This document shows, in pieces, positions 1,485 to 21,311 of a DNA stretch of 64,000 nucleotides. Below the pieces are notes generated by a model. That model did no database searches. It had not been told where the DNA came from and was given only the letters and a program-made list of their open reading frames with translations. Source of the stretch: Closterium sp. NIES-65 (taxonomy: Eukaryota > Streptophyta > Zygnematophyceae > Desmidiales > Closteriaceae); the NCBI GenBank assembly GCA_948144175.1, contig CANXME010002158.1, forward strand, positions 62,001-126,000. The letters are read 5' to 3'. Positions within the stretch are counted from its first letter, which is position 1; every line of letters starts with the position of its first letter. Position numbers and translations under genes: made by a program.

Positions 1485-3339
1485 CGCTCAGATCTCGCAT
1501 AGTACACAGAATCAAGTGGTCTCACTCAAATAGAAAGTAGGAAATATATTCATCTAGTGAACGTAAGGGTTTGAAAGGTAACTAACGTACATGTGTGGAG
1601 AAAATTGTGCATCGGCCAGTCTGGCCGGCATTTCGCACTCATAGTGCAGGCGGGGCCAGGGAGAACGGAAACGCTCGTTTCTCAAAAAGTAGAGGGGATC
1701 TAACGGTCTCACTCAATCACAAGGTGGGAAATATATAAATCTAGTCAGCTAAAAAGGTTTGAAATGTATTCAACGCACATGTATAGAGAAAATGGTGCAT
1801 TGGCCAGGTCGATCAGTATCGGAACTTAAAATGCAAATGCCAGGGAGAACGGAAGCGCTCAGATCTCGCATAGTACACAGAATCAAGTGGTCTCACTCAA
1901 ATAGAAAGTAGGAAATATATTCATCTAGTGAACGTAAGGGTTTGAAAGGTAACTAACGTACATGTGTAGAGAAAATTGTGCATCGGCCAGTCTGGCCGGC
2001 ATTTCGCACTTATAGTGCAACTAGGGCCAAGGAGAACGGAAACGCTCATTTCTCAAGAAGTAGAGGGAATCTAGCGGTCTCACTCAATCACAAGGTGGGA
2101 AATATATAAATCTAGTGAGCTAATAAGGTTCGAAAGGAATCTAATGCATATGTATATGGAAAATGGTGCATTGGCCTGGTCGGTCAGTATGGGAACTTGG
2201 AGTGCAAATGCCAGGGAGAACGGAAGCGCTCAGATCTCGCATAGCACACGGAATCTAGTGGTCTCACTCAAATAGAAGGTAGGAAATAAATTCATCTAGT
2301 GAACGTAAGGGTTTGAAAGGTAACTAACGCACATGTGTATAGAAAATGGTGCATCGGCCAGTCTGGCCGGCATTTCGCACTTATAGTGCAAGTAGGGCCA
2401 AGGAGAACGGAAACGCTCATTTCTCAAAAAGTAAAGGGAATCTAGCGGTCTCACTCGATCAGAAGGTGGGAAATATATAAATCTAGTGAGCTAATAAGGT
2501 TTGAAAGGAATCTAATGCATATGTATATGGAAAATGGTGCATTGGCCAGGTCGGTCAGTATGGGAACTTAGAGTGCAAATGCCAGGGAGAACGGAAGCGC
2601 TCAGATCTCGCATAGTACACGGAATCTAGTGGTCTCACTCAAATAGAAGGTAGGAAATATATTCATCTAGTGAAGGTAAGGGTTTGAAAGGTAACTAACG
2701 CACATGTGTAGAGAAAATGGTGCATCGGCCAGTCTGGCCGGCATTTCGCACTTATAGTGCAAGTAGGGCCAAGGAGAACGGAAACGCTCATTTCTCAAAA
2801 AGGAAATGGAATCTAGCGGTCTCACTCGATCAGAAGGTGGGAAATATATAAATCTAGTGAGCTAATAAGGTTCGGAAGGAATCTAATGCATATGTATATG
2901 AAAAGTTGTGCATTGGCCAGGTCGGTCAGTATGGGAACTTAGAGTGCAAATGCCTGGGAGAACGGAACCGCTCAGATCTCGCATAATACACGGAATCTAG
3001 TGGTCTCACTCAAATATAAGGTAGGAAATATATTCATCTAGTGAACGTAAGGGTTTGAAAGGTAACTAACGCACATGTGTAGAGAAAATGGTGCATCGGC
3101 CAGTCTGGCCGGCATTTCGCACTCATAGTGCAGGTGGGGCCAGGGAGAACGGAAACGCTCGTTTCTCAAAAAGTAGAGGGGATCTAACGGTCTCACTCAA
3201 TCACAAGGTGGGAAATATATAAATCTAGTCAGCTAAAAAGGTTTGAAATGTATTCAACGCACATGTATAGAGAAAATGGTGCATTGGCCAGGTCGGTCAG
3301 TATCGGAACTTAAAATGCAAATGCCAGGGAGAACGGAAG
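1485..3339. repeat. Higher-order repeat, five dimers (1855 bp), copy 1
   Basis: Dimers start at 1485, 1856, 2227, 2598 and 2969. Diagnostic variants (ACAGAATCAAG; ACTTATAGTGCAACTAG; AGCACACGG with AATAAATTC; GAAGGTAAGGG with AAAAAGGAAATGG; ATAATACACGG) recur in the same order in the next 1855 bp. Confidence 0.85.
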
Positions 3340-5194
3340 CGCTCAGATCTCGCATAGTACACAGAATCAAGTGGTCTCACTCAAATAGAAAGTAGGAAAT
3401 ATATTCATCTAGTGAACGTAAGGGTTTGAAAGGTAACTAACGTACATGTGAAGAGAAAATTGTGCATCGGCCAGTCTGGCCGGCATTTCGCACTCATAGT
3501 GCAGGCGGGGCCAGGGAGAACGGAAACGCTCGTTTCTCAAAAAGTAGAGGGGATCTAACGGTCTCACTCAATCACAAGGTGGGAAATATATAAATCTAGT
3601 CAGCTAAAAAGGTTTGAAATGTATTCAACGCACATGTATAGAGAAAATGGTGCATTGGCCAGGTCGGTCAGTATCGGAACTTAAAATGCAAATGCCAGGG
3701 AGAACGGAAGCGCTCAGATCTCGCATAGTACACAGAATCAAGTGGTCTCACTCAAATAGAAAGTAGGAAATATATTCATCTAGTGAACGTAAGGGTTTGA
3801 AAGGTAACTAACGTACATGTGTAGAGAAAATTGTGCATCGGCCAGTCTGGCCGGCATTTCGCACTTATAGTGCAACTAGGGCCAAGGAGAACGGAAACGC
3901 TCATTTCTCAAGAAGTAGAGGGAATCTAGCGGTCTCACTCGATCACAAGGTGGGAAATATATAAATCTAGTGAGCTAATAAGGTTCGAAAGGAATCTAAT
4001 GCATATGTATATGGAAAATGGTGCATTGGCCAGGTCGGTCAGTATGGGAACTTGGAGTGCAAATGCCAGGGAGAACGGAAGCGCTCAGATCTCGCATAGC
4101 ACACGGAATCTAGTGGTCTCACTCAAATAGAAGGTAGGAAATAAATTCATCTAGTGAACGTAAGGGTTTGAAAGGTAACTAACGCACATGTGTATAGAAA
4201 ATGGTGCATCGGCCAGTCTGGCCGGCATTTCGCACTTATAGTGCAAGTAGGGCCAAGGAGAACGGAAATGCTCATTTCTCAAAAAGTAAAGGGAATCTAG
4301 CGGTCTCACTCGATCAGAAGGTGGGAAATATATAAATCTAGTGAGCTAATAAGGTTTGAAAGGAATCTAATGCATATGTATATGGAAAATGGTGCATTGG
4401 CCAGGTCGGTCAGTATGGGAACTTAGAGTGCAAATGCCAGGGAGAACGGAAGCGCTCAGATCTCGCATAGTACACGGAATCTAGTGGTCTCACTCAAATA
4501 GAAGGTAGGAAATATATTCATCTAGTGAAGGTAAGGGTTTGAAAGGTAACTAACGCACATGTGTAGAGAAAATGGTGCATCGGCCAGTCTGGCCGGCATT
4601 TCGCACTTATAGTGCAAGTAGGGCCAAGGAGAACGGAAACGCTCATTTCTCAAAAAGGAAATGGAATCTAGCGGTCTCACTCGATCAGAAGGTGGGAAAT
4701 ATATAAATCTAGTGAGCTAATAAGGTTCGGAAGGAATCTAATGCATATGTATATGAAAAGTGGTGCATTGGCGAGGTCGGTCAGTATGGGAACTTAGAGT
4801 GCAAATGCCTGGGAGAACGGAACCGCTCAGATCTCGCATAATACACGGAATCTTGTGGTCTCACTCAAATATAAGGTAGGAAATATATTCATCTAGTGAA
4901 CGTAAGGGTTTGAAAGGTAACTAACGCACATGTGTAGAGAAAATGGTGCATCGGCCAGTCTGGCCGGCATTTCGCACTCATAATGCAGGTGGGGCCAGGG
5001 AGAACGGAAACGCTCGTTTCTCAAAAAGTAGAGGGGATCTAACGGTCTCACTCAATCACAAGGTGTGAAATATATAAATCTAGTCAGCTAAAAAGGTTTG
5101 AAATGTATTCAACGCACATGTATAGAGAAAATGGTGCATTGGCCAGGTCAGTCAGTATCGGAACTTAAAATGCAAATGCCAGGGAGAACGGAAG
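3340..5194. repeat. Higher-order repeat, five dimers (1855 bp), copy 2
   Basis: This is a direct tandem copy of 1485-3339, with dimers at 3340, 3711, 4082, 4453 and 4824 carrying the same variants in the same order. Its first dimer has GTGAAGAGAAAA, as in the dimer at position 1 but not the one at 1485, so exchange has mixed units between copies. A third copy starts at 5195 but is interrupted by the deletion near 5659. Confidence 0.85.
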
Positions 5195-8100
5195 CGCTCA
5201 GATCTCGCATAGTACACAGAATCAAGTGGTCTCACTCAAATAGAAAGTAGGAAATATATTCATCTAGTGAACGTAAGGGTTTGAAAGGTAACTAACGTAC
5301 ATGTGTAGAGAAAATTGTGCATCGGCCAGTCTGGCCGGCATTTCGCACTCATAGTGCAGGTGGGGCCAGGGAGAACAGAAACGCTCGTTTCTCAAAAAGT
5401 AGAGGGGATCTAACGGTCTCACTCAATCACAAGGTGGGAAATATATAAATCTAGTCAGCTAAAAAGGTTTGAAATGTATTCAACGCACATGTATAGAGAA
5501 AATGGTGCATTGGCCAGGTCGGTCAGTATCGGAACTTAAAATGCAAATGCCAGGGAGAACGGAAGCGCTCAGATCTCGCATAGTACACAGAATCAAGTGG
5601 TCTCACTCAAATAGAAAGTAGGAAATATATTCATCTAGTGAACGTAAGGGTTTGAAAGGCAACTAGGGCCAAGGAGAACGGAAACGCTCATTTCTCAAAA
5701 AGTAGAGGGAATCTAGCGGTCTCACTCGATCAGAAGGTGGGAAATATATAAATCTAGTGAGTTAATAAGGTTCGAAAGGAATCTAATGCATATGTATATA
5801 GAAAATGGTGCATTGGCCAGGTCGGTCAGTATGGGAACTTAGAGTGCAAATGCCTGGGAGAACGGAAGCGCTCAGATCTCGCATAGTACACGGAATCTAG
5901 TGGTCTCACTCAAATAGAAGGTAGGAAATAAATTCATCTAGTGAACGTAAAGGTTTGAAAGGTAACTAACGCACATGTGTAGAGAAAATGGTGCATCGGC
6001 CAGTCTGGCCGGCATTTCGCACATATAGTGCAACTAGGGCCAAGGAGAACGGAAACGCTCATTTCTCAAAAAGTAGAGGGAATCTAGCGGTCTCACTCGA
6101 TAAGAAGGTGGGAAATATATAAATCTAGTGAGCTAATAAGGTTCGAAAGGAATCTAATGCATATGTATATGGAAAATGGTGCATTGGCCAGGTCGGTCAG
6201 TATCGGAACTTAGAGTGCAAATGCCAGGGAGAACGGAAGCGCTCAGATCTCGCATAGTACACGGAATCTAGTGGTCTCACTCAAATAGAAGGTAGGAAAT
6301 AAATTCATCTAGTGAACGTAAGGGTTTGAAAGGTAACTAACGCACATGTGTAGAGAAAATGGTGCATCGGCCAGTCTGGCCGGCATTTCGTACTTATAGT
6401 GCAAGTAGGGCCAAGGAGAACGGAAACGCTAATTTCTCAAAAAGTAAAGGGAATCTAGTGGTCTCACTCGATCAGAAGGTGGGAAATATATAAATCTAGT
6501 GAGCTAATAAGGTTCGAAAGGAATCTAATGCATATGTATATGGAAAATGGTGCATTGGCCAGGTCGGTCAGTATGGGAACTTAGAGTGCAAATGCAAGGG
6601 AGAACGGAAGCGCTCAGATCTCGCATAGTACACGGAATCTAGTGGTCTCACTCAAATAGAAGGTAGGAAATAAATTTTTAGTGTACGTAAGGGTTTGAAA
6701 GGTAACTAACGCACATGTGTAGAGAAAATGGTGCATCGGCCAGTCTGGCCGGCATTTCGCACTTATAGTGCAACTAGGGCCAAGGAGAACGGAAACGCTC
6801 ATTTCTCATAAAGTAGAGGGAATCTAGCGGTCTCACTCGATCAGAAGGTGGGAAATATATAAATCTAGTGAGCTAATAAGGTTCGAAAGGAATCTAATGC
6901 ATATGTATATGGAAAATGGTGCATTGGCCAGGTCGGTCAGTATGGGAACTTAGAGTGCAAATGCAAGGGAGAACGGAAGCGCTCAGATCTCGCATAGTAC
7001 ACGGAATCTAGTGGTCTCACTCAAATAGAAGGTAGGAAATAAATTCATCTAGTGAACGTAAGGGTTTGAAAGGTAACTAACGCACATGTGTAGAGAAAAT
7101 GGTGCATCGGCCAGTCTGGCCGGCATTTCGTACTTATAGTGCAAGTAGGGCCAAGGAGAACGGAAACGCTCATTTCTCAAAAAGTAAAGGGAATCTAGTG
7201 GTCTCACTCGATCCGAAGGTGGGAAATATATAAATCTAGTGAGCTAATAAGGTTCGAAAGGAATCTAATGCATATGTATATGGAAAATGGTGCATTGGCC
7301 AGGTCGGTCAGTATGGGAACTTAGAGTGCAAATGCAAGGGAGAACGTAAGCGCTCAGATCTCGCATAGTACACGGAATCTAGTGGTCTCACTCAAATAGA
7401 AGGTAGGAAATAAATTCATCTAGTGAACATAAGGGTTTGAAAGGTAACTAACGCACATGTGTAGAGAAAATGGTGCATCGGCCAGTCTGGCCGGCATTTC
7501 GCACTTATAGTGCAAGTAGGGCCAAGGAGAACGGAAACGCTCATTTCTCAAAAAGTAAAGGGAATCTAGTGGTCTCACTCGACCAAAAGGTGGGAAAAAT
7601 ATAAATCTAGTGAGCTAATAAGGTTCGAAAGGAATCTAATGCATATGTATATCGAAAATGGTGCATTGGCCAGGTCGGTCAGTATGGGAACTTAGAGTGC
7701 AAATGCCAGGGAGAACGGAAGCGCTCAGATCTCGCATAGTACACGGAATCTAGTGGTCTCACTCAAATGGAAGGTAGGAAATAAATTCATCTAGTGAACG
7801 TAAGGGTTTGAAAGGTAACTAACGCACATGTGTAGAGAAAATTGTGCATCGGCCAGTCTGGCCGGCATTTCGCACTTATAGTGCAAGTAGGGCCAAGGAG
7901 AACGGAAACGCTCATTTCTCAAAAAGTAAAGGGAATCTAGCGATCTCACTCGATCAGAAGGTGGGAAATATATAAATCTAGTGAGCTAATAAGGTTTGAA
8001 AGGAATCTAATGCATATGTATATGGAAAATGGTGCATTGGCCAGGTCGGTCAGTATGGGAACTTAGAGTGCAATGCCAGGGAGAACGGAAGCGCTCAGAT

Positions 8101-14051: not shown

Positions 14052-14181
14052 TGTCAGAATATTATCTTATTGTTCTAGCCTGTAGTGGGGTGCTCTATAG
14101 CGAGTACAACCCTTCTAGGGTTTGCTATTTGTATCCTTATTCTTGCTAGTTCAATCCTCTTTCTTCCTTCTAATTTTGACA
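14052..14181 (+). mobile_element. Solo LTR, 130 bp, copy 1
   Basis: The sequence starts TGTCAGAATATT and ends AATTTTGACA, giving TGTCA/TGACA inverted ends. A perfect 5 bp target duplication TCACT flanks it (14047-14051 and 14182-14186). It interrupts the satellite phrase GGTCTCACTCAAATA. It resembles the LTR at 31814-31943: same 130 bp length, TGTCAG start, a shared TAGTGGGGT core and a TTCTAGGGTT block. It is read as a solo LTR of a short-LTR copia-like family, a fossil without internal region. Confidence 0.85.
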
Positions 14182-14800
14182 TCACTCAAATATAAGGTAG
14201 GAAATATATTCAGCTAGTGAACGTAAGGGTTTGAAAGGTAACTAACGTACATGTGTAGAGAAAATGGTGCATCAGCCAGTCTGGCCGGCATTTCGCACTC
14301 ATAGTGCAGGTGGGGCCAGGGAGAACAGAAACGCTCGTCTCTCAAAAAGTAGAGGGAATCTAACGGTCTCACTAAATCAGAAGGTGAGAAATATATAAAT
14401 CTAGTCAGCTAAAAAGGTTTGAAATATATTCACCGCACATGTATAGAGAAAATGGTGCATTGGCCAGGTCGGTCAGTATCGGAACTTAAAATGCAAATGC
14501 CATGGAGAACGGAAGCGCTCAGATCTCGCATAGTACACGGAATCAAGTGGTCTCACTCAAATAGAAAGTAGGAAATATATTCATCTAGTGAACGTTAGGG
14601 TTTGAAAGGTAACTAACGCACATGTGTAGAGAAAATTGTGCATCGGCCAGTCTGGCCTGCATTTCGCACTTATAGTGCAAGTAGGGCCAAGGAGAACGGA
14701 AACGCTCATTTCTCAAAAAGTAAAGGGAATCTAGCGGTCTCACTCAATCAGAAGGTGGGAAATATATAAATCTAGTGAGCTAATAAGGTTTGAAAGTAAT
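14182..14800. repeat. Satellite between solo LTR and TRIM, cassette 1
   Basis: Satellite sequence, starting within half A (CAAATATAAGG) and ending within half B (AATAAGGTTTGAAAG). No gene or other element is seen. The same 619 bp interval separates the two elements in all four cassettes. Confidence 0.9.
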
Positions 14801-14939
14801 TCTCAGAATCCCAACCACTAGACCATTGGGATAAAAGGGCGTGTTTCAGTAGCGGGTCAGTGCGCCCATAACCCCCCAGGCAAATGTGCCTGTAACCCTT
14901 CCCTAGGATCGATCGGGGATCACCAGTGGACCTCTGACA

Positions 14940-14949
14940 CCCCCCCGCA
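14940..14949 (-). promoter_or_regulatory. Polypurine-like tract of TRIM copy 1
   Basis: On the minus strand this reads TGCGGGGGGG directly before the downstream LTR start TGTCAG. A purine run in this position is where plus-strand priming occurs in LTR elements. The same run precedes the downstream LTR in the other three copies. Confidence 0.65.
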
Positions 14950-14975
14950 CTGGGATGCCCGAAGTGCATACACCG

Positions 14976-15033
14976 GGATTCGAACCCGAGACCTTCGCTC
15001 TGATACCATCTCAGAATCCCAACCACTAGACCA
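14976..15033 (-). promoter_or_regulatory. tRNA-like A box and B box across the LTR/primer-site boundary
   Basis: On the minus strand TGGTCTAGTGG (15023-15033) fits the Pol III A-box consensus and GGTTCGAATCC (14976-14986) fits the B box, with 36 bp between them, a normal tRNA spacing. Between them TCTGA-GATGGTA-TCAGA forms a 5 bp stem with a 7 nt loop, and CGGG-TTCGAAT-CCCG forms a T-arm-like hairpin. The A-box side resembles tRNA-Glu. The acceptor ends do not pair, so this is not a tRNA gene. The same arrangement lies at A boxes 16874-16884, 19216-19226 and 21187-21197. Promoter activity is inferred. Confidence 0.6.
14997..15008 (-). promoter_or_regulatory. Primer-binding site of TRIM copy 1
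   Basis: TGGTATCAGAGC on the minus strand is the complement of the 3' end of plant initiator tRNA-Met, the usual primer of plant copia and TRIM elements. It begins immediately after the LTR with no gap. The identical 12-mer occupies the same position in the three other copies. Confidence 0.8.
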
Positions 15034-15147
15034 TTGGGATAAAAGGGCGTGTTTCAGTAGCGGGTCAGTGCGCCCATAACCCCCCCGGCAAATGTGCCTG
15101 TAACCCTTCCCTAGGATCGATCGGGGATCACCAGTGGACCTCTGACA

Positions 15148-15902
15148 GGAATCTAATGCATATGTATATGGAAAATGGTGCATTGGCCAGGTCCGTCAGT
15201 ATGGGAACTTAGAGTGCAAATGCCTGGGAGAACGGAAGCGCTCAGATCTCGCATAGTACACGGAATCTAGTGGTGTCACTCAAATAGAAGGTAGGAAATA
15301 AATTCATCTAGTGAACGTAAGGGTTTGAAAGGTAACTAACGCACATGTGTAGAGAAAATGGTGCATCGGCCAGTCTGACCGGCATTTCGCACTTATAGTG
15401 CAAGTAGGGCCAAGGTATATGGAAAATGGTGCATTGGCCAGGTCGGTCAGTATGGGAACATAGAGTGCAAATGCCTGGGAGAACGGAAGCGCTCAGATCT
15501 CGCATAGTACACGGAATCTAGTGGTCTCACTCAAATAGAAGGTAGGAAATAAATTCATCTAGTGAACGTAATGGTTTGAAAGGTAACTAACGCACATGTG
15601 TAGAGAAAATGGTGCATCGGCCAGTCTGGCCGGCATTTCGCACTTATAGTGCAAGTAGGGCCAAGGAGAACGGAAACGCTCATTTCTCAAAAAGTAGAGG
15701 GAATCTAGCGGTCTCACTCGATCAGAAGGTGGGAAATATATAAATCTAGTGAGCTAATAAGGTTCGGAAGGAATCTAATGCATATGTTTATGGAAAGTGG
15801 TGCATTGGCTAGGTCGGTCAGTATGGGAACTTAGAGTGCAAATGCCTGGGAGAACGGAACCGCTCAGATCTCGCATAATACACGGAATCTAGTGGTCTCA
15901 CT
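15148..15902. repeat. Satellite between cassettes 1 and 2
   Basis: About two satellite dimers. One is shortened: near 15416 GGGCCAAGG runs directly into TATATGGAAAATGG, skipping most of a B half. No gene is seen. Confidence 0.92.
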
Positions 15903-16032
15903 TGTCAGAATATTATCTTATTGTTCTAGCCTGTAGTGGGGTGCTCTATAGCGAGTACAACCCTTCTAGGGTTTGCTATTTGTATCCTCATTCTTGCTAG
16001 TTCAATCCTCTTTCTTCCTTCTAATTTTGACA
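15903..16032 (+). mobile_element. Solo LTR, 130 bp, copy 2
   Basis: Same length, ends and TCACT target duplication as the copy at 14052, with only about one base difference noticed. It is a copy made by satellite amplification. Confidence 0.85.
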
Positions 16033-16651: not shown

Positions 16652-16998
16652 TCTAAGAATCCCAACCACTAGACCATTGGGATAAAAGGGCGTGTTTCAG
16701 TAGCGGGTCAGTGCGCCCATAACCCCCCAGGCAAATGTGCCTGTAACCCTTCCCTAGGATCGATCGGGGATCACCAGTGGACCTCTGACACCCCCCCGCA
16801 CTGGGATGCCCGAAGTGCATACACCGGGACTCGAACCCGAGACCTTCGCTCTGATACCATCTCAGAATCCCAACCACTAGACCATTGGGATAAAAGGGCG
16901 TGTTTCAGTAGCGGGTCAGTGCGCCCATAACCCCCAAGGCAAATGTGCCTATAACCCTTCCCTAGGATCGATCGGGGATCACCAGTGGACCTCTGACA
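16652..16998 (-). mobile_element. TRIM/SMART-like element, copy 2
   Basis: LTRs at 16860-16998 and 16652-16790 are 139 bp each, with primer site at 16848-16859 and a 69 bp internal region. The target duplication GGAAT is perfect (16647-16651 and 16999-17003). The paired LTRs differ at only a few bases. Structurally whole and non-coding. Confidence 0.82.
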
Positions 16999-18993: not shown

Positions 18994-19340
18994 TCTCAGA
19001 ATCCCAACCACTAGACCATTGGGATAAAAGGGCGTGTTTCAGTAGCGGGTCAGTGCGCCCATAACCCCCCAGGCAAATGTGCCTGTAACCCTTCCCTAGG
19101 ATCGATCGGGGATCACCAGTGGACCTCTGACACCCCCCCGCACTGGGATGCCCGAAGTGCATACACCGGGATTCGAACCCGAGACCTTCGCTCTGATACC
19201 ATCTCAGAATCCCAACCACTAGACCATTGGGATAAAAGGGCGTGTTTCAGTAGCGGGTCAGTGCGCCCATAACCCCCCCGGAAAATGTGCCTGTAACCCT
19301 TCCCTAGGATCGATCGGGGATCACCAGTGGACCTCTGACA
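18994..19340 (-). mobile_element. TRIM/SMART-like element, copy 3
   Basis: LTRs at 19202-19340 and 18994-19132, internal region 19133-19201, and perfect GGAAT target duplication (18989-18993 and 19341-19345). Same architecture as copy 1, with a few LTR mismatches. Structurally whole and non-coding. Confidence 0.82.
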
Positions 19341-20964: not shown

Positions 20965-21311
20965 TCTCAGAATCCCAACCACTAGACCATTGGGATAAAA
21001 GGGCGTGTTTCAGTAGCGGGTCAGTGCGCCCATAACCCCCCAGGCAAATGTGCCTGTAACCCTTCCCTAGGATCGATCGGGGATCACCAGTGGACCTCTG
21101 ACACCCCCCCGCACTGGGATACCCGAAGTGCATACACCGGGACTCGAACCCGAGACCTTCGCTCTGATACCATCTCAGAATCCCAACCACTAGACCATTG
21201 GGATAAAAGGGCGTGTTTCAGTAGCGGGTCAGTGCGCCCATAACCCCCCAGGCAAATGTGCCTGTAACCCTTCCCTAGGATCGATCCGGGATCACCAGTG
21301 GACCTCTGACA
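20965..21311 (-). mobile_element. TRIM/SMART-like element, copy 4
   Basis: LTRs at 21173-21311 and 20965-21103, internal region 21104-21172, and perfect GGAAT duplication (20960-20964 and 21312-21316). The paired LTRs are nearly identical. The B box reads GGTTCGAGTCC here and in copy 2, against GGTTCGAATCC in copies 1 and 3; both fit the consensus. Structurally whole and non-coding. Confidence 0.82.

Follow-up and report, generated by a model that had tools for sequence, protein, structure and literature searches.

The TRIM reading of the 347-bp element at positions 14801..15147 (minus strand) of the window, i.e., the whole 64,000-nt stretch of Closterium sp. NIES-65 DNA that was analysed, is strongly supported, and it was borne out by dispersed copies that carry LTR pairs and 5-bp target duplications. 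We regard it as likely, judging from the sequence, that this non-autonomous LTR retrotransposon (TRIM) is transcribed by RNA polymerase III (Pol III) from a type-2 promoter complete only at the junction of the 5' LTR and the interior, and that it is helped by Copia elements.

Anatomy, dispersal and class of the element

The element consists of two direct repeats of 139 nt, which are 99% identical (one mismatch) and start 208 nt apart, and of an interior of 69 nt, primer site counted in, giving 139 + 69 + 139 = 347 nt; it thus has two LTRs within a total of less than 1 kb. In the sense orientation, which is the minus strand, the LTR reads TGTCAGAGG...TTCTGAGA, with the 5' LTR at 15009..15147 and the 3' LTR at 14801..14939. 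Directly after the 5' LTR comes the primer site TGGTATCAGAGC (14997..15008; sense coordinates 140-151), complementary to the 3' end of initiator tRNA-Met, and the interior ends with a G7 polypurine tract (14940..14946) that adjoins the second LTR. In the window subfamily the tRNA complement extends the primer site by two further matching bases, and genes for the initiator tRNA were found at 32 places with at most two mismatches (letters displayed for two). Pairing is possible between TCTGA at the LTR end and TCAGA in the primer site. The A box TGGTCTAGTGG lies near the end of both LTRs, at 15023..15033 in the 5' LTR (sense 115-125) and at 14815..14825 in the 3' LTR (sense 323-333), while the sole B box, GGTTCGAATCC, lies in the interior at 14976..14986 (sense 162-172), 36 nt beyond the first A box. 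A TTTT run (T4) occurs at 15041..15044 (sense 104-107), 7 nt ahead of the A box in the presumed start region, and again at 14833..14836 of the 3' LTR (sense 312-315), where it may serve as a Pol III terminator. The preliminary description, made from the letters of the window alone, had named the terminal repeats, the abutting primer site and G tract, and the two boxes with their spacing, and all of these were confirmed.

Three further copies lie in the window on the minus strand (16652..16998, 18994..19340 and 20965..21311). Every one of the four contains two A boxes and one B box, and T4 occurs once per LTR in all of them, with one additional T4 at position 56 of the copy at 18994. The element is embedded in a 184/371-bp satellite, and since the four copies share one target, GGAAT, inside the satellite, they derive from a single insertion that the array has multiplied, three being later duplicates. 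The 5-bp target duplications that had been claimed are exact in the three other copies (GGAAT/GGAAT), but differ by one mismatch at the copy at 14801, which has GTAAT at 14796..14800 and GGAAT at 15148..15152. The window also holds a nearly 30-kb minisatellite at 34478-64000, built from 6-mers of the GTGGAC type and 17-mers of the GCTCCTGGACCAGGCAA type, with the orientation reversed between its two sides. In the same assembly, at least 20 full-length rbcL-family matches were seen in G000 contigs C75, C97, C162, C824, C1848, C2174 and others, apparently several redundant plastid contigs. The open frame of rbcL matched Rubisco large chains of the green lineage best among PDB entries.

The genome (874 Mb, 2400 contigs) was searched with the element, and among the best 40 of 1050 candidates scored there were at least 44 matches, 40 of these covering positions 1-347. 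The 40 loci retrieved with their flanks contained 41 full-length copies, and an exact 5-bp target duplication was found in 38 of them; no exact duplication of any other length from 3 to 14 occurred among the 41. The copies without an exact duplication were the window copy and L012, with one mismatch each, and L013, with no duplication. By their flanks the copies represent 31 distinct insertion sites, and 30 of these have exact 5-bp duplications of 30 different target sequences, as would be sought in dispersed copies of a TRIM. The two LTRs of a copy are identical in 27 of the 41 and differ at one position in 10 and at two in 2, the remaining two being gapped and uncountable; because similarity to the window copy set the ranking, young copies are over-represented in this sample. 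For a second sample, 30 of the 3352 places combining primer site and B box were taken in contig order. In 23 of these 30 loci the computation gave a repeat pair, and at least four of the 23 are not simple elements (L045, L047, L056 and L062); 15 of the 23 have a 5-bp duplication no more than 4 nt away from the calculated ends, nine at zero offset, the offsets permitting some chance matches. Frequent among the contig-order loci was a second subfamily with an LTR of about 142 and an interior of about 93 nt (e.g., L068, 142 + 93 + 142 = 377 nt), and the LTR end was mostly ACA, compared with AGA in the window copy.

The element shares its tRNA-type A and B boxes with tRNA-derived SINEs and is likewise small, and tandem units exist at some places. 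The preliminary description had allowed for a blurred boundary between TRIM and SINE. A tRNA-derived SINE whose units stand in tandem by happenstance has a negligible probability. SINEs of this class have a tail, target-primed insertion and variable duplications, whereas the present element has LTRs, a primer site and 5-bp duplications of fixed length. The copies have a fixed length of 347 nt with direct repeats that differ little or not at all, the primer site and the G tract adjoin these repeats, and the 30 different exact duplications at dispersed sites refute the SINE reading, which was therefore ruled out. As a separate observation, tandem arrays of the TRIM, with G-tract/LTR junctions 208-209 nt apart, were seen at G000:C43:701829-702575 and C21:888570-888794; tandem arrays of SMART are reported in maize in the part of PMC4717578 that we draw on.

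A candidate promoter across the LTR/primer-site boundary

Chance formation of the boxes was estimated with 5000 dinucleotide shuffles of the 208-nt LTR and interior unit, both strands of which were scanned (10000 strands). A canonical A box followed 20-70 nt downstream by a strict B box occurred in 0/10000 shuffled strands, the same A box with a loose B box in 15/10000, and a strict B box alone in 4/10000. Across the genome, the A box, primer site and B box stand together at 2580 places, against none in the reversed controls. The A box with the primer site is present at 3209 places, 80% of which also have the B box (about 20% are without it as patterned), and 77% of the places with primer site and B box, a pair absent from the reversed controls, also have the A box. 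The G-tract/LTR junction recurs at 4486 places versus 16 controls. Conservation of LTR, primer site and G tract as a unit, and presence of the boxes in dispersed copies, had both been put up for checking in the preliminary description. The looser pattern of CA plus primer site matched 8518 places. The core of T4, leader and A box is found at 7357 places, about 2.3 per place with A box and primer site, which is roughly what two LTRs per element would give and suggests that solo LTRs are not abundant, with the caveat that the patterns differ in strictness.

Variation was assessed in 54 full-length LTRs from 30 loci whose selection relied on the primer site and the B box, with the A box playing no part. 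On average, 7.1% of the letters over the whole LTR differed from the commonest one, compared with 2.0% for the T4 leader and 2.2% for the A box; T4 was present in 52 of the 54 LTRs and the exact A box in 43. The A-box window ranked as the 15th least variable of 129 (3rd when seven loci chosen by their A box were included), and the ten least variable windows shown include six that overlap the A box, three that adjoin it and one elsewhere. The low variation thus reaches beyond the A box, and much of it could be due simply to the recent common descent of the copies. The recurrence of the boxes as a unit across the genome and the low variation of leader and A box together support an A/B-box promoter as a sequence-based assignment.

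The likeness to a tRNA is limited. Under the Rfam tRNA model the element scored 15.7 and 16.4 bits, where the cut-off is 29, and ARAGORN called no tRNA in the window or in the 30 loci; a functional tRNA gene thus finds no support, and the interpretation given in the preliminary description is upheld in part. Folding does predict the hairpins that had been likened to an anticodon arm and a T arm, but shuffled sequences fold just as stably (z -0.69 and +0.13), and hairpin structure was dropped as evidence. A donor tRNA gene was also sought; the pattern matched seven places, in every one of which letters resembling the primer site separate the boxes, so that they are TRIM copies and not tRNA genes.

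These weak overall scores and the unremarkable fold would fit an element transcribed by RNA polymerase II or by read-through from a neighbour, in which the A- and B-like motifs are inert relics or coincidence. Other tiny TRIMs point the same way, as SMART is reported with a TATA motif in the part of PMC3281118 used here, and so does the reach of the low-variation stretch beyond the A box. Coincidence is nevertheless hard to reconcile with two boxes at tRNA-like spacing, given how rarely shuffling reproduces them, and with their joint recurrence at so many places, and no match to TATAWA, AATAAA or TATAAT was found within the element. We therefore hold transcription by RNA polymerase II or read-through to be rather unlikely, though it has the largest share among the alternatives. 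A narrower proposal concerns origin only, namely that the B box is the copied complement of the T arm of the primer tRNA, acquired beside the primer site and not derived from a sense tRNA. T arms are near-palindromic, and some other LTR elements of this genome bear longer complements of the initiator tRNA after the primer site, both of which would permit such an origin. The TRIM interiors have no excess of this complementarity, as 305/2000 and 133/2000 shuffles score as well, in contrast to L044 and L057, where none of 2000 shuffles does so in either case, and the sense region matches the tRNA model of Rfam together with the A box. A copied complement is accordingly not supported for the TRIM and appears quite improbable.

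Proposed transcription cycle and a putative Copia partner

In type-2 Pol III promoters the A and B boxes follow the transcription start, and T runs bring the polymerase to a stop. In the TRIM, only the junction of the 5' LTR and the interior has both boxes. TFIIIC would bind the A box at the LTR end together with the B box in the interior, and Pol III would start at or just 5' of T4, roughly 12-20 nt before the A box, read through the primer site, the interior and the 3' LTR, and stop at the same T4 run there. With a start near T4 and a stop at T4 of the 3' LTR, the two RNA ends would share only a short stretch, a few to about a dozen nucleotides. By analogy with other LTR retroelements, initiator tRNA-Met would prime at the primer site, the strand would be transferred through the short end repeat, and the G tract would prime the second strand; the very small size of the shared end, as a substrate, counts against the proposal. 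Reverse transcriptase and integrase would be supplied in trans by a Copia element, yielding the 5-bp duplications observed. The 3' LTR and solo LTRs, having an A box without a B box downstream, should be silent. In its fullest form, in which the promoter exists only across the LTR/primer-site junction with the primer site in the position of the anticodon arm, each complete insertion is one polar Pol III gene, the 3' and solo LTRs are born silent, and T4 is both start region and terminator, the proposal is one towards which we lean only slightly.

The helper is suggested by chimeras. In 5 of the 30 contig-order loci (L042, L046, L047, L057 and L066) the TRIM interior stands behind another LTR end that has no A box. 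One foreign LTR type, designated P1 (GTAGGCTATAGTGGGGTA...), starts with TGTCAGA in L044 and L046 and lies ahead of the same primer site as that of the TRIM at 1022 places; a P1 LTR is linked through the primer site to the TRIM interior at no fewer than three places (C10:434027, which is L046, C31:61383 and C73:1152079). In L044, the P1 LTR follows about 210 nt downstream of the end of a Copia coding region, of which the open frame at 1-606 matches RVT_2 (E 8.1e-11) and the next frame, at 730-1056, has no Pfam match and looks RNase H-like by eye. The TRIM and P1 share the primer site and the TGTCAG start, and together with the chimeric junctions to a Copia LTR type these traits suggest a candidate Copia helper. 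Template switching between co-packaged RNAs would produce junctions of this kind at the primer site that both have. P1 is not the sole chimera partner, since a second foreign LTR type, with CCTAGGCTACTAAGCCTAGG, also precedes the TRIM interior in L042 and L056/L057.

Two further observations were made on LTRs and primer sites of this genome. A solo LTR (TGTCAGAA...TTTTGACA) at 14052-14181 of the window, with the target duplication TCACT read in this first copy, has 99% copies at 15903, 18245 and 20216, was multiplied fourfold with the satellite, and resembles by eye the P1-like LTR of L044. In other LTR elements the complementarity to initiator tRNA-Met seems to continue well past the primer site, into the anticodon and D arms of the tRNA, as downstream of the primer site in L044 (about 2155), L057, L059 (at 882), L046 and L042; the score was equalled by 0/2000 shuffles in L044 and L057, 15/2000 in L059, 22/2000 in L046 and 43/2000 in L042. 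Yeast Ty1 has extended primer-tRNA contacts, of which these complements are reminiscent.

Known relatives and significance

The kind of element described here is already in print. Helenus (TRIMp3), as presented in the parts of Kojima 2024 (PMC10886601) that we draw on, comprises TRIMs whose LTRs bear a tRNA-like sequence, and the likeness extends to the A and B boxes, the primer site, the polypurine tract, the 5-bp duplications of its fungal and plant families, and the size of a Selaginella family (LTR 120, interior 85). According to the same parts, boxes A and B of Helenus both lie within the LTRs, whereas in the Closterium element the primer site separates an A box in the LTR from the sole B box, which is interior. 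Because the B box is outside the LTR, we do not file the element as Helenus proper, and the split across the LTR/primer-site boundary is what is new relative to those parts of the Helenus account; no published description of it was recognised among the open-access papers listed, as judged by title and start of abstract.

Cassandra is likewise a TRIM with a Pol III promoter, according to the portions of PMC10886601 and PMC10853983 used here, and its transcript starts and ends in the small-RNA sequence of the LTR, leaving an 18-bp repeat (PMC10886601), the same logic as that proposed for the Closterium element. The promoter of Cassandra is derived from 5S rRNA and lies inside the LTR, whereas the present one would be tRNA-type and split, and Rfam scans gave no match to a 5S rRNA-derived sequence or to a hammerhead ribozyme, the trait of Retrozymes. 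SMART (FRetro129) is also very small (292 bp), with TGT...ACA ends, a 5-bp duplication and a putative Copia partner, but TATAAAA is reported in its LTR (PMC3281118, in part), unlike in our element; a word search of the SMART text at hand (PMC3281118) returned 0 occurrences of 'tRNA' and 'RNA polymerase'.

LTR elements usually hold their promoter in the LTR, so that both LTRs carry it. If the proposed reading is true, a promoter that needs the interior for its completion would by its very design set complete elements apart from relic LTRs, and the element would test how small a terminal repeat can be for strand transfer. The plant record of TRIMs with a tRNA-type promoter would also be widened beyond Selaginella moellendorffii, the sole plant host given in the consulted parts of the 2024 Helenus survey (PMC10886601).
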